Positions 14,688 to 32,917 of a DNA stretch of 64,000 nucleotides are shown here, piece by piece. The notes under the pieces were generated by a model, which saw nothing but the letters and a program-made list of their open reading frames with translations, did no database searches and had not been told where the DNA came from. The stretch lies in assembly GCF_000022325.1 (NCBI RefSeq), contig NC_012034.1:1568501-1632500 (forward strand), given 5' to 3'. The translations under genes were made by a program, and so were the position numbers. Origin of the DNA: Caldicellulosiruptor bescii DSM 6725. GTDB taxonomy: Bacteria > Bacillota > Thermoanaerobacteria > Caldicellulosiruptorales > Caldicellulosiruptoraceae. Position 1 is the stretch's first letter. Each line of letters starts with the position of its first letter.

Positions 14688-17275
14688 ATCAATTGCCTCT
14701 CTTTGGCTTTAATTATTTCATGTTTGAGCTCACTTAAAATGTTTAAAGCCTGGATAGGAGTTATATTTAAAATATCAAGTTTCTCAATTTTGTCTATTAT
14801 CTCTTCTTTTTTATAGGAAAAAAAATCTATCTGCTCAGTAAACTCCTTTTTGATTTCTCTTCTGAGTTTTCTGATATTTTTCCTATTTATATCAGCTTCT
14901 TCAAGCTGTTTTAGAATTTCCTCAGCCCTTTTTAATACCTCTTCTGGAATTCCAGCAAGCCGTGCAACATGAATCCCATAACTTGAGTCACATCCACCTC
15001 TAACAATTTTCCTTAAAAATATAATGTTTTTGCCCTCCTCCTTGACATCAACCCTATAGTTTTTTACACCTGGAATCCTCTCTTCAAGCTCTGTTAACTC
15101 ATGGTAATGAGTTGCAAAAAGGGTTTTTGCACCAATTTTAGATTTATCAGCAACATACTCTAAAACTGCCCATGCTATGGAAAGTCCATCATATGTGCTT
15201 GTTCCTCTTCCAACCTCGTCAAAAATTATAAGGCTTTTTGGCGTTGCATTTTTCAATATGTTCGCAACTTCTGACATCTCCACCATGAAGGTACTCTGCC
15301 CAGATGAAATATCATCAGATGCCCCTATCCGTGAAAAGATTTTATCAACTACACCAATGTGTGCCTCATCAGCAGGTACAAAACATCCCATCTGTGCCAT
15401 TATGACAATTAAGGCTACCTGTCTCATGTATGTAGACTTACCAGCCATATTTGGACCAGTTATAATCAAAACTCTGTTTTCTGCCTGATCAAGTTCAGTG
15501 TCATTTGGAATGAAATTGCCCCTGCCTATCATCTTTTCAACAACTGGGTGTCTACCGTTCTTAATATATATTCTATCCCCTAAGTAAACATTTGGCCTGA
15601 CATACTCATTGTCAATTGCAATACGGGCAAATGAACACAGAACATCCAAGTTGGCAATATTGCTTGCTGTCTTTTGAATTCTTTCAATCTGAGCCTCAAT
15701 CCTATCCCTTATTTCGCAAAAAAGCTGGTATTCAAGTTCGATAAGTTTTTGATCAGCACCCAATATTTCATCTTCCAATTTTTTGAGTTCCTCTGTTATA
15801 TACCTCTCTGCATTTGCAAGAGTTTGTTTCCGAATGTATCTGTCAGGAACAAGAGAGTAGTTTGACTTGGTCACCTCAATATAGTATCCAAAAACCTTGT
15901 TATAACCAATTCTGAGATTTTTTATACCTGTGAGGTTCCTCTCTTTTTCTTCATACTCAACTAAAAGCTCTTTGCTATTTTTAGATATATTTCTCAGCCT
16001 ATCTACTTCTTCGTTAAAACCCTCTTTAATTATTCCACCCTCTTTTAGGGACACAGGTGCATCCTCATTTATAGAACTGTCAATAAGCGCATATATATCT
16101 TCTAATGTATCAAGACCTTCATAAATCTCTTTTAATAATTCTGAATCAAATGAAGAAAGAAATTGTTTTAAAGTTGGCAACACTTCAATAGACTTTTTTA
16201 GACTCAGCAAATCTTTAGCATTCACATTCTTATATGCAAACTTTGAGGAAAGTCTTTCTATATCATACATTCTGCTCAAAAGTTCTTCTACCTGCACTAA
16301 AGTGGAATAGTTTGATTTGAGCTCCTCAACACTATCAAGCCTTTTATTAATCTCAATAATGTCAATAAGAGGTCTTTCAATCCATTTTTTCAATAGCCTT
16401 GAACCCATTGAAGTCTTCGTTTGATCCAAAATACCAAGAAGGCTATTCTTTCTGGAGCGCTGAATAATACTCTCTGTGAGCTCCAAATTTCGTTTTGTGT
16501 TTATGTCAATTTGAAGATAGTTTTGGACTCTGTAAAATTCAAACCTCCTTATATAATCAAAGGAAATTTTTTGGGTCTCTGTTAAGTATTTTAGCAAATT
16601 TCCTACGCTCAAAATCAGCTTCTCATCTATTTTGCCAACATTTATCTGATTTTCAATAATCTCATGGCACTTTTGTAAATCCACAAACTCTATCATCTGC
16701 ACAAAAGAAGTGCAGTTTTTCTTCAAAAATTCATAAAGCTCATCTTCTATATTTGAAATTAAAATTTCACTGGGACTGTATTTGCCAATTTCATTTACCA
16801 GTTTCTGAAGGTCCTCTTCAAGAAGGCAAGAGTACATCTCACCAGTTGAAACATCTACAAATGTCAGGGCAAATTCAGATCTGTCTTTTGATATACAACA
16901 TATGAAATTATTGGCTGTCGAAATATTATCGTCAATAAATGTGCCTGGAGTTATTATTCTTGTAATTTCCCTTTTAACAATTCCCTTTGCAAGCTTTGGG
17001 TCTTCCACCTGTTCGCAGATAGCAACCTTGTAACCTTTTTCGATAAGCTTTGCAATGTAACTGGTCGCAGAATGGTACGGCACACCGCACATAGGAGCTT
17101 TTTCATTGTTTCCACAATCTCTGCTGGTTAAAGCTATCTCAAGCTCTTTAGACGCCACAATCGCATCTTCAAAAAACATCTCATAAAAATCGCCAAGCCT
17201 AAAAAATAAAATACAATCTTTCACCTTCTGTTTTATTTCCATATATTGCTGCATCATAGGAGTTAACTCTTGCAT
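14684..17275 (-). CDS. mutS: DNA mismatch repair protein MutS
   Basis: The 863-residue MutS recognises base mismatches. The mismatch-reading Phe-X-Glu is F30-Y31-E32 in LGDFYEMF. The ATPase domain has Walker A GPNMAGKST and the FDEVGRGTSTYDG Walker B/D-loop region, with THYHEL just beyond. A Lys/Glu-rich C-terminal tail (about 790-863) matches the tetramer/beta-clamp region of the family. It lies 3 bases after miaB and overlaps mutL by 4, so miaB-mutS-mutL are almost surely cotranscribed. The length is normal and no key residue seems lost. Confidence 0.97.
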   Translation of the reverse strand: MQELTPMMQQYMEIKQKVKDCILFFRLGDFYEMFFEDAIVASKELEIALTSRDCGNNEKAPMCGVPYHSATSYIAKLIEKGYKVAICEQVEDPKLAKGIVKREITRIITPGTFIDDNISTANNFICCISKDRSEFALTFVDVSTGEMYSCLLEEDLQKLVNEIGKYSPSEILISNIEDELYEFLKKNCTSFVQMIEFVDLQKCHEIIENQINVGKIDEKLILSVGNLLKYLTETQKISFDYIRRFEFYRVQNYLQIDINTKRNLELTESIIQRSRKNSLLGILDQTKTSMGSRLLKKWIERPLIDIIEINKRLDSVEELKSNYSTLVQVEELLSRMYDIERLSSKFAYKNVNAKDLLSLKKSIEVLPTLKQFLSSFDSELLKEIYEGLDTLEDIYALIDSSINEDAPVSLKEGGIIKEGFNEEVDRLRNISKNSKELLVEYEEKERNLTGIKNLRIGYNKVFGYYIEVTKSNYSLVPDRYIRKQTLANAERYITEELKKLEDEILGADQKLIELEYQLFCEIRDRIEAQIERIQKTASNIANLDVLCSFARIAIDNEYVRPNVYLGDRIYIKNGRHPVVEKMIGRGNFIPNDTELDQAENRVLIITGPNMAGKSTYMRQVALIVIMAQMGCFVPADEAHIGVVDKIFSRIGASDDISSGQSTFMVEMSEVANILKNATPKSLIIFDEVGRGTSTYDGLSIAWAVLEYVADKSKIGAKTLFATHYHELTELEERIPGVKNYRVDVKEEGKNIIFLRKIVRGGCDSSYGIHVARLAGIPEEVLKRAEEILKQLEEADINRKNIRKLRREIKKEFTEQIDFFSYKKEEIIDKIEKLDILNITPIQALNILSELKHEIIKAKERQLI

Positions 17276-28053: not shown

Positions 28054-28515
28054 TTATTCTATCTTTTCTGTTAAAAGCTTCTGAAGCTCTTCTATAAAGG
28101 TATTTATATCCTTAAACTGCCTGTAAACAGAAGCAAACCTCACATATGAAATCTCATCAATCTTCTTGAGCTTTTCCATAACCATCTCACCAATTTCTCT
28201 TGATGAGATTTCTTCGCGCATAGAATTATAAATCTCATTCTCAATTTCATCTACAATCTTATTCATCTGCTCAATAGAGACAGGTCTTTTCTGGCACGCT
28301 TTTATAATACCATTTAAGATCTTATTCCTGTCAAACTCTTCTCTTCTATTATCTTTTTTAATAACTAAAATTGGCTGTTTTTCTATTTTTTCGTATGTTG
28401 TAAATCTTTTTTGACATTTTAGACACTCACGTCTTCTTTTTATAGTTTTTCCTTCATTAGTTGGGCGAGTATCAACAACTTTACTGTCTTCATACCCACA
28501 AAAAGGACATCTCAT
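28054..28515 (-). CDS. nrdR: Transcriptional repressor NrdR
   Basis: The 153-residue NrdR represses ribonucleotide reductase genes in response to ATP/dATP. The N-terminal zinc ribbon has CPFC (C3, C6) and CLKC near 31-34 with a [15 protein letters not shown] core. An ATP-cone domain follows at about 49-139 ([17 protein letters not shown]). The gene start overlaps the GGDEF gene stop by 4 bases. No ribonucleotide reductase gene or clear NrdR box lies in the window, so it acts in trans. Confidence 0.96.
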
Positions 28516-30185
28516 ACTTTCATCTCCAATTCCTGATTATATACTACTGTGCAATTTTTCCCACTACTTTTTGCTCTATACATTGCAATATCTGCACATT
28601 TAATAAGATCTTTTACATTGTCAGCATGCAAAGGATAAGAAGCAATACCAAAGCTAACTGTCACTCGAGTCTGAATCAAATTATCTTCTATTATTTCACT
28701 TTCAATAGCTCTTCTGATTCTCTCAACTACCTTGTAAGCTTCATTACTTTCAAGGTGATTAAAGACTATTATAAATTCCTCTCCTCCATAACGTGCAACA
28801 ATATCACCTTTTCGCACCTTTTCTCTTGCTATTCTAACTATCGTTTGCAACACCTTGTCTCCGAACAAATGCCCGTATGTATCATTTAACTTTTTAAAAT
28901 TATCAACATCAAAAAGAGCAATGCTAATCGGATATCTTCCTGCAGATGCCTGAATCTCTCTTTCTAAGACTTCATAAAGATATATTCTATTGAAAGCACC
29001 CGTTAGCCCATCAACCATAGCCATTGACCTCATCTGCTGATACAAACTTGAGTTTTCCAATGCAATTGAAACTTGTGCAGCAATGGATGTTAAAAATCTA
29101 AGATTGTCTTCTGTAAATACATCTTCAAATATATGTTCGAGTAGTATTATTCCATACCTGTCATTTTTTGTTGCCAATGAAGCATACATTATCGACTTTG
29201 TAGCTCTTCCATTTATGAAAGGACAATCTTCACTGCTCACCTTATTCCTATAGCCATTTTCACAATTTAATGCAACACTTCTGAGCCACCCTATATTCTC
29301 CTGCTTAAAGCTTTCTTTTTGTTCGTTCTCTGGAAGGTTAGAAAATGCAACATAAAGCTCTGTTTTTTCTTTATTAAATAACAGTATAGAGCTTTTGTCA
29401 ACACCAGTGACTCCAATTAAAACATCATTAACAAACTTTAAAAGTTCATTAGTATCAAGTATTTGTGTTATTATTTTACTAATTTCCTGAAGGTTAAAAA
29501 ATTCCCCCAGAGAGATGTTTAGTCTTTTGTTAATCTCCTTCAGATAACTTATTTCCCTTTCCAATTCTTTAATTTTTGCATCTTTTGCCTCACTAAGCAG
29601 CTGTTGGTTTCTTAAATTTTCTTCGTACTGTTTTAGTTTTATACTAATTTCATTAGTTTGACTTTTTTCAAAGACCTCAAGTTTGTTAGAATAAGAAAAC
29701 CAAAAGATATAAAATAGAATATAAAATAGGTTTCTCAAATCTTCGCTGGTGATATTGTTTGTAATAAAATCGAGAAATATAAAAAATGTATATGAAAAAA
29801 TCAAAACCATTGCTACCTGCCTTAAATTTCTCATATTTATTCTTTCAATGTAAAATAGGAATACAAGCGATATGACAAACATCAAATCAAAAAGCCTCTC
29901 ATATCCGAAAAAGAATACAAGATTTACAACCTCAAAAAATTTCAAATACCTAAAAATCTCTTCATTAATCTGTCCATTCTTACCAAAAAGCCATATCTTG
30001 AATATATTGTAGGCTGATGAAATAAACAAAAATATTAGAGGAACAAGCCACTGTGAAAAAGAAAGTGTTTCTAAAGTAGGTGAAAATAACAGCTTATCAA
30101 AAAGTAAGTACACTGCAATTGATAAAATTAAAAACCATGAAATTTTTATGTATTCCCTTTCAATTGCTATTTTTTCAGTGCTCAC
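28512..30185 (-). CDS. Membrane GAF-GGDEF diguanylate cyclase
   Basis: From the GTG at 30185 (557 residues) the protein has about five hydrophobic segments in the first 160 residues, a coiled coil (about 165-225), a GAF-like sensor domain (about 230-380), and a C-terminal GGDEF domain (about 395-550) with the active motif GGEEF in [12 protein letters not shown]. It should make cyclic di-GMP at the membrane. No RxxD I-site is evident before the motif, so product inhibition is uncertain. An ATG five codons earlier overlaps the GGAGG site and is rejected. The gene is coupled to nrdR and has a 25-A run just after its likely transcription start. Confidence 0.88.
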
Positions 30186-30231
30186 AAGCCTTCCTCCCAT
30201 TTATAGCAATCCATTGTCTTCAAGTAACAAC

Positions 30232-30256
30232 TTTTTTTTTTTTTTTTTTTTTTTTT
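30232..30256. repeat. Homopolymer tract of 25 T/A
   Basis: Twenty-five uninterrupted T on plus (A25 in the transcript of the GGDEF gene). It lies between the predicted -10 (30265-30270) and the ribosome binding site. Confidence 0.95.
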
Positions 30257-30264
30257 ATTTATGC

Positions 30265-30293
30265 TATATATTGACAATAATCATAAAACACAA
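30265..30293 (-). promoter_or_regulatory. Promoter of the GGDEF-nrdR unit
   Basis: TTGTGT (30288-30293), 17 bp, TATATA (30265-30270) on minus. Transcription would start a few bases before the A25 run. Confidence 0.45.
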
Positions 30294-30811
30294 CACAAGT
30301 ATACTTCTTTTATCTTTATTATATTACATCTCACAAGCTCTGTCTATAAAAAGAAGTGACAAACCGTTAAAGGGAACTAATGGAATAATTGTACAAAGTG
30401 AAGCTTGACTTTTGCAGATAGTTAAAATAAAAATAGCTTGCAATCCCTTGTAAATAAAGGATTGGAGTCTATTTAAGTTTTAGCAAAATATCATAGTAAA
30501 AATTACTCTTTTTTGTCTCTTCCAAAATTTTCCTTATTTCTTTTAGTCTCATAAATTTCTTACTAAAATCTTTAAGTATCTTTAGCACACATTATTTTGT
30601 TTCAAAAATCGGGTATATCTTTCTATTGTCTTTTTGTCTATTTCATGAATATTGGTGTTTGCATCAATAAAACGAGTAAATTATTCAAAGTTTATGGTAT
30701 AATAATCAGGGAAGGTATTAGCTAAATTTTTGAGTTTGCAGTGTGTAATTAAATTCGTCGGATACTTGTTTGAATGTTTTACTTTCAATTTTACTACTCC
30801 TAAAAAGAAAA
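30294..30811. other. Gene-poor gap, possibly a decayed gene on minus
   Basis: No intact gene is visible between the GGDEF promoter and the tRNA-Leu terminator. On minus, three short stretches read like protein in different frames: one including SKTFKQVSDEFNYTLQT (about 30720-30790), one including TRFIDANTNIHEIDKKTIER (about 30600-30680), and one ending KEIRKILEETKKSNFYYD plus a stop at 30469. Stops and a shift separate them. I do not recognise the ancestor. A small dyad, CAATCC...GGATTG, lies at 30441-30464. Confidence 0.35.
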
Positions 30812-32169: not shown

Positions 32170-32917
32170 TTACTCAGAAAATACCTTCACAAAGACATCC
32201 TCTATGCTGTCAGACATATACTTTTTCTTTACATTATAAGGCGTGTCAATCTCTTTTAAAATTCCATTGAACATAAATGCAACAACATCACATCTTTCTG
32301 CCTCGTCCATATACCTCGTCCATATAATGGGTTGTTACAAGCACTGTCACACCGCTGTTTGAAAAAAATTTTATCATTTCCCAATATTCCTTTCTTGAAA
32401 TGGGGTCAACTCCTGCTGTGGGCTCATCCAAAATCAGGATTTGCGGATTGTGCAGTGTGGCACATGCAAAAGCAAGTTTTTGTTTCATTCCGCCGGATAA
32501 GGTACTGACTTGAGACTTTTCCCTGCCTTCAAATTTGAAGAGTTTCATAAGTTGTTTCTTTTTTGTCTCAATTTCGTTTTTTGAAAGACCATACACAGCT
32601 CCATAAAAATTAATGTTCTCTTCAATCGTCAAATCCTCATACAAACTAAATTTTTGAGAAACATACCCAATATTTTGTCTTACTTCTTCAGGGTATTTTG
32701 AAACATCCTTTCCAAGAACTTCAACATAACCCTCTGTAGCTCTTAATACTCCGCAGATTATTTTTATAGTTGTGGTTTTCCCAGAGCCATTAGGGCCAAG
32801 CAGTCCAAAAATGCAACCCTTTGGAACCTCAAATGAAATATTATTCACCGCAACAAATCTACTGAATTTCTTTGTAAGTCTTTCAATTTTTATAGCTTTG
32901 TCCAAATCAACCTTCAC
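32170..32917 (-). pseudogene. ABC transporter ATP-binding subunit, frameshifted by a 13-bp tandem duplication
   Basis: The reading frame from the ATG at 32917 has Walker A (GPNGSGKTT), Q-loop, the LSGGMKQ signature, Walker B (LILDEPTAGVD) and the H-switch TTH. It then runs out of frame and stops at 32288. The 13 bases CCTCGTCCATATA occur twice back to back (32301-32313 and 32314-32326). Removing one copy restores HYMDEAERCDVV and a normal tail to a stop at 32170, giving 244 residues as expected. As written, the 209-residue product keeps all catalytic motifs but lacks the C-terminal part. It may be a recent mutation, a reversible switch, or a sequencing error. Confidence 0.9.
32301..32326. repeat. 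Perfect 13-bp tandem duplication
   Basis: Two adjacent identical copies of CCTCGTCCATATA. Since 13 is not a multiple of three, the repeat shifts the frame of the ABC ATPase gene. Confidence 0.97.

Follow-up and report, generated by a model that had tools for sequence, protein, structure and literature searches.

The A25 tract ahead of the GGDEF gene and nrdR, in the 64-kb stretch of Caldicellulosiruptor bescii DNA analysed here (the window), appears to be a slippage-prone SSR in the operon leader, and its most likely role is to tune the GGDEF-nrdR operon in a graded way and not to switch it on or off. This reading draws on analogy with known systems, and we place its probability slightly below one half (about 0.48). 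The operon would be transcribed from promoter P1 (30346-30318) and through the tract within the 5′ untranslated leader, and replication slippage would alter the tract length but leave the operon and the remainder of its leader unchanged. Tract length would then tune the operon in small steps, either as RNA polymerase crosses the tract or by way of a factor that binds poly-A in the RNA. Variation between species points to slippage as the cause of the length differences, whereas we infer an effect of length on expression purely by analogy with sabA and tlpB of H. pylori.

The sequence-only reading had described a diguanylate cyclase paired with nrdR, and this was supported by a Pfam GGDEF match and by the 4-nt overlap between the GGDEF stop and the nrdR start in 12/12 genomes of the genus (11 from a motif search; the twelfth, G003, was missed by the motif and taken from the ORF coordinates of a longer stretch). 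The product of the first gene carries GAF and GGDEF domains with a GGEEF motif, and the overlap across the genus suggests that the two genes are probably co-expressed. Translation most likely starts from the GTG at 30185, which follows GGGAGGAAGG, since the distant clade does not conserve the ATG that lies farther upstream, at 30200. The genome of the sister genus (G012) keeps the pair with the same overlap, as judged from ORF coordinates, without the tract, which makes the gene pair the older of the two. A search for protein relatives of the GGDEF product kept 80 loci of general GGDEF similarity (29-43%), none from the genus, and a plasmid search returned four short matches of 3% of the query, which were uninformative. 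The features of the locus are collected in Table 1. Elsewhere in the window, an ATP-binding frame of an ABC transporter (ORF 32288-32917, minus strand) has, close to its end, a perfect 13-base tandem duplication (32301-32326), which seems to cut the frame short.

Table 1. Features of the GGDEF-nrdR locus, in window coordinates.
Feature	Position	Strand	Basis or remark
P1 promoter (predicted): -35 TAGACA, 17-nt spacer, -10 TATAAT	30318..30346	-	11/12 consensus positions
Inverted-repeat-like segment TGTCAATATATAGCA, possible operator	30262..30276	-	adjoins tract; imperfect in window
A25 tract (T25 on plus strand)	30232..30256	-	length-variable part of leader; orthologue lengths compared
Conserved stretch of the leader, ACAATGGATTGC, with TGGAT core; possible CsrA site (weak candidate)	30206..30217	-	leader alignment
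Shine-Dalgarno region GGGAGGAAGG and 3-nt spacer	30186..30198	-	leader alignment
GAF-GGDEF diguanylate cyclase gene, GTG start	28512..30185	-	Pfam GGDEF match
nrdR (Zn ribbon and ATP cone)	28054..28515	-	4-nt overlap with GGDEF stop

The run of 25 bases was present as first described; it reads T25 on the plus strand (30232-30256) and A25 (30256-30232) in the sense of the GGDEF gene, which is encoded on the minus strand. It was also by far the longest in the window, where the second-longest homopolymer measured 9. With the tract left out, first- to fifth-order Markov models trained on the window put the number of runs of at least 25 of one particular base expected in 64 kb at 1e-9 to 2e-5; the conserved leader thus holds a homopolymer far beyond chance length at a 5′ regulatory position, as is characteristic of a mononucleotide SSR. 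Genome-wide, however, the A25 was unexceptional. The window chromosome (2,919,718 bases, within a 3-contig genome) carried 22 A/T runs of at least 12, and A58, A29 and A26 exceeded the GGDEF-leader A25. Low-order Markov models expected about 22 or more such runs and the order-5 model about 6, so that only the very long runs lay clearly beyond chance.

Alignment of the 12 orthologous upstream regions revealed T(A/G)GACA-N17-TATAAT in all 12 genomes, the only promoter kept throughout. Strong upstream conservation started at this promoter, P1, and the sequence farther upstream differed between clades. Transcription from P1 was predicted to start at about 30311; a public 5′ RNA-seq set of C. bescii is available as GSE163475 (PMC8579813). 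From the end of the P1 -10 to the tract there were 61 nt in the window and 56-69 nt in 11/11 tract-bearing genomes, and the distance from the 3′ border of the tract to the GTG was 45-47 nt in the same 11. With P1 at this position, the tract most likely falls inside the 5′ leader of the transcript and away from its start, and would be transcribed from about +55 (predicted). We counted the presence of P1 in 12/12 genomes, at this spacing, in favour of a tuner in the leader.

These distances do not support the placement of the tract in the sequence-only reading, right after the -10 at the transcription start. On that reading the tract forms the start region, where RNA polymerase could slip and add non-templated A. 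RNA polymerases slip on homopolymers, and an AT-rich stretch, TATAGCATAAAT, lies directly before the tract; against this, the sole promoter conserved in all 12 genomes lies well upstream, the promoter scan listed nothing promoter-like immediately ahead of the tract, and a homopolymer a few nucleotides after the -10, as in reiterative promoters, was found in none of the 11 tract-bearing genomes. Reiterative transcription at initiation is accordingly unlikely with P1 so far away, and we regard the start-region model as very improbable.

A tract of 7-30 A occupied the orthologous place in 11/12 genomes of the genus, and its length differed strongly between species. The lengths were 25 (G000), 12 (G006), 19 (G005), 23 (G001), 18 (G003), 30 (G004), 18 (G009), 7 (G010), 24 (G002), 11 (G011) and 7 (G008), and G007 had no tract in its leader. 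One genome per species was compared, so that all of this variation is between species, and the lengths come from related genomes and do not count as independent events. The closest pair, G000 and G006, shared 98% identity over most of the locus, yet carried 25 and 12 A, respectively; among the genus tracts, length difference showed no significant correlation with divergence. Homopolymers are error-prone, and the exact lengths (12 versus 25) could carry some error, but runs of at least 7 at the same place in 11/12 separately assembled genomes make a sequencing or assembly artefact scarcely credible. Loss of mismatch repair was rejected as the cause of the variability in a search for mutS1 alone: the gene lies in the same window (14723-17266, minus strand) and scored above the profile cut-off, so that slippage cannot be put down to a missing mutS1.

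The flanks of the tract were conserved, which together with lengths that differ between relatives is the pattern of a mononucleotide SSR. With the tract collapsed, the leader of G000 was 64-68% identical to those of the distant clade, compared with 38-43% at four-fold sites in the gene, and GGGAGGAAG was present in 12/12 genus leaders. The higher identity of the leader indicates that the hypervariable run sits inside a leader otherwise held by selection, a pattern that fits a useful repeat and a tolerated one alike.

Several regulatory candidates in the leader were assessed. The leader was predicted to be almost unfolded at 70 °C, and the predicted accessibility of the Shine-Dalgarno sequence was unchanged with tract lengths of 0-58 at 37 or 70 °C. 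An RNA structure switched by the tract was therefore rejected, and the folding predictions offered no structural means of controlling translation. No curated Rfam match to a riboswitch, for c-di-GMP or another ligand, appeared in the leader up to E = 5. A search with the NrdR box consensus, allowing up to 3 mismatches, gave no box in the leader among the matches listed, and NrdR autoregulation through the leader palindrome was rejected on this ground; read by eye, the palindrome differs from that consensus at 5 positions. The palindrome itself (30262-30276, minus strand) shows compensating change between species, reading TGTAA-N5-TTACA in G002 and G011 and TGTTA-N5-TAACA in G008 in the alignment, and may possibly serve as an operator. 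The window genome also encodes a CsrA family member. The leader GGA motifs are TGGAT and GGGAGGA, the latter at the Shine-Dalgarno sequence, and the hairpin is weak, with few pairs in the window genome; CsrA control of the leader through the candidate site is an idea that these motifs suggest.

Promoter-proximal A/T repeats form a set found across the genus, and the GGDEF tract is part of it. The 12 genomes held 97 A/T runs of at least 12, all of which we examined in their sequence context. In G005, the GGDEF-leader tract was the sole run of this length in the whole genome, which we counted for the tuner. A chemotaxis-receptor gene with an MCPsignal domain (MCP1) was found in 7/12 genomes and carried A23-A58 in all seven. 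Its A58 (L045, G000:C1:647458-647515) lies directly upstream of the -35, and the orthologues L160-L165 had 25, 23, 34, 37, 55 and 48 A. In most genomes the MCP1 tract was followed directly by a (G)TTACA-like -35, with a deletion there in G001; the promoter spacer holds the palindrome CCACAANNTTGTGG in some species. A second chemotaxis-receptor gene (MCP2), behind a GGDEF-EAL gene, was found in 5/12 genomes, with A9-A26 in 5/5 followed by GTTTACA-N17-TATAT(A/T). In a family of 38 loci, the tract lay about 5 nt before TTGACA, often ahead of a C39-peptidase ABC exporter gene. A repeated promoter module, A(n)-CGRGATTGACA...TATAAGATAAAAT, was seen at L037, L039, L046-L049, L051, L053, L056 and their relatives, in many copies per genome and frequently ahead of genes for C39-peptidase ABC exporters or small peptides. 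At L138 (G008, A68), L041, L042 and L090, T-runs of 15-68 stopped 4 nt short of a TATAAT -10, giving a variable -35/-10 region; the downstream gene encodes a large protein of unknown family.

Long runs were also common across the class, with A/T runs of at least 18 in 33/37 genomes; the sister genus G012, of the same family, had none of this length genome-wide. Among class relatives outside the genus, tracts reached A113, upstream of other genes, in the 20 of 54 listed places that were examined. The flanks were similar at five loci there (L293, L294, L295, L298 and L299), whose A-tracts of 41, 20, 58, 113 and 43 precede a promoter with a LexA-box-like sequence.

Single-linkage clustering of the 40-nt flanks sorted the tracts into 26 families, each represented by its longest tract. 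A promoter matching at least 9/12 positions followed the A end in 7 families (background 3.5%; binomial 2e-5), a count that becomes 6/25 if MCP2, split across two families, is merged, and a 5-of-6 -10 followed the T end in 10 (background 12.4%; 7e-4). The background was drawn from the same flanks 60-600 nt away, coding DNA included, and the test thus shows an association of tracts with promoters, not with the GGDEF gene.

An alternative reading places a second promoter, P2 (TTGTTA-N19-TATAAA; extended -10, TGC/TGT), directly after the GGDEF tract; the A-tract would then serve P2 as an UP element, in the manner of MCP1 and MCP2. The junction A(n)-G-TT is common to the three loci in the window genome, and an extended -10-like TG(C/T)TATAAA occurs in the 8 near-clade genomes. 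However, P2 scored 8/12 against the consensus, a value matched by 17% of background windows; the distant clade does not preserve its -10 (TATAAG, TAAAAA, TTAAAA, TAAAAA), and its start would fall in or beside the Shine-Dalgarno sequence. With the site at background level, P2 was set aside as unlikely, and the sabA mechanism is not directly transferable to this gene.

A neutral, tolerated microsatellite is a serious rival and quite possible. An A-rich leader segment would grow and shrink by slippage with expression unaffected; its persistence would reflect the tolerance of leaders to changes in length and the re-purification of the run by slippage. The wide range of lengths, down to 7 and none, is consistent with this, as are the frequency of long runs in the class and the predicted indifference of Shine-Dalgarno accessibility. 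So is the absence of the tract from G012, in which a 6-kb stretch with the operon contained no A run of at least 8; together with its absence from G007, this indicates that the tract is dispensable, and we counted both genomes, along with the folding prediction, against the tuner. Neutrality sits less easily with unbroken runs at the same place in 11/12 genomes though four-fold identity is about 40%, with the 23 or more A held by MCP1 in 7/7, and with promoter-like hexamers adjoining tracts above background. The uninterrupted placement of the tract, its length variation and the parallels at MCP1 and MCP2 were counted for a graded tuner.

A broader, doubtful proposal is that in Caldicellulosiruptor, a host-free extreme thermophile, very long poly-A repeats in promoters and leaders serve as heritable rheostats for c-di-GMP, chemotaxis and secreted-protein genes, with clones drifting reversibly between attached and roaming states. 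If length sets expression, this would be a free-living thermophile with repeat-based bet-hedging, otherwise known mainly from host-associated pathogens. The bet-hedging would target attachment and motility signalling, coupled to the ribonucleotide-reductase repressor NrdR, and the loci might drift between C. bescii stocks, a warning for engineers. Even if neutral, the orthologous tracts form a natural series on homopolymer upkeep over large evolutionary distances.

Experimental precedent for a tuner comes from H. pylori, in the sabA T-tract and the tlpB leader G-repeat. The T-tract in the sabA promoter is described as an expression rheostat (PMC4081817), and the GGDEF tract resembles it as an intergenic A/T mononucleotide repeat near a promoter whose length varies at a fixed site. 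It differs in lying inside a predicted leader and in belonging to a thermophile, not a pathogen. MCP1 and MCP2 resemble the sabA placement more closely: by sequence, their tracts adjoin the -35, whereas that of the GGDEF gene does not. Table 2 of the same paper includes two tracts downstream of the -10 (frpB, 16T; fecA, 16A), and its lengths are 9-16, compared with 25-58 reached in Caldicellulosiruptor. In the leader of H. pylori tlpB, a chemotaxis-receptor gene, a G-repeat bound by the small RNA RepG is reported to give graded control (PMC8295292). The likeness would be a variable homopolymer in the leader (predicted in our case) of a signalling gene co-transcribed (here probably) with a second gene; the difference is poly-A in place of a G-repeat bound by a known small RNA. 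Poly-A tracts in prokaryotic genes are reported to vary at high rates and to affect expression (PMC2831843), but those tracts lie in coding genes and act by frameshift, while the GGDEF tract is non-coding. Going by titles and the openings of abstracts in the open-access papers searched, we recognised none on phase variation or homopolymer tracts in Caldicellulosiruptor; as evidence of absence this is weak. Promoters and leaders that hold a homopolymer of variable length are an already known kind; less usual here are the length, the thermophilic host and the link to c-di-GMP and chemotaxis genes kept throughout the genus.
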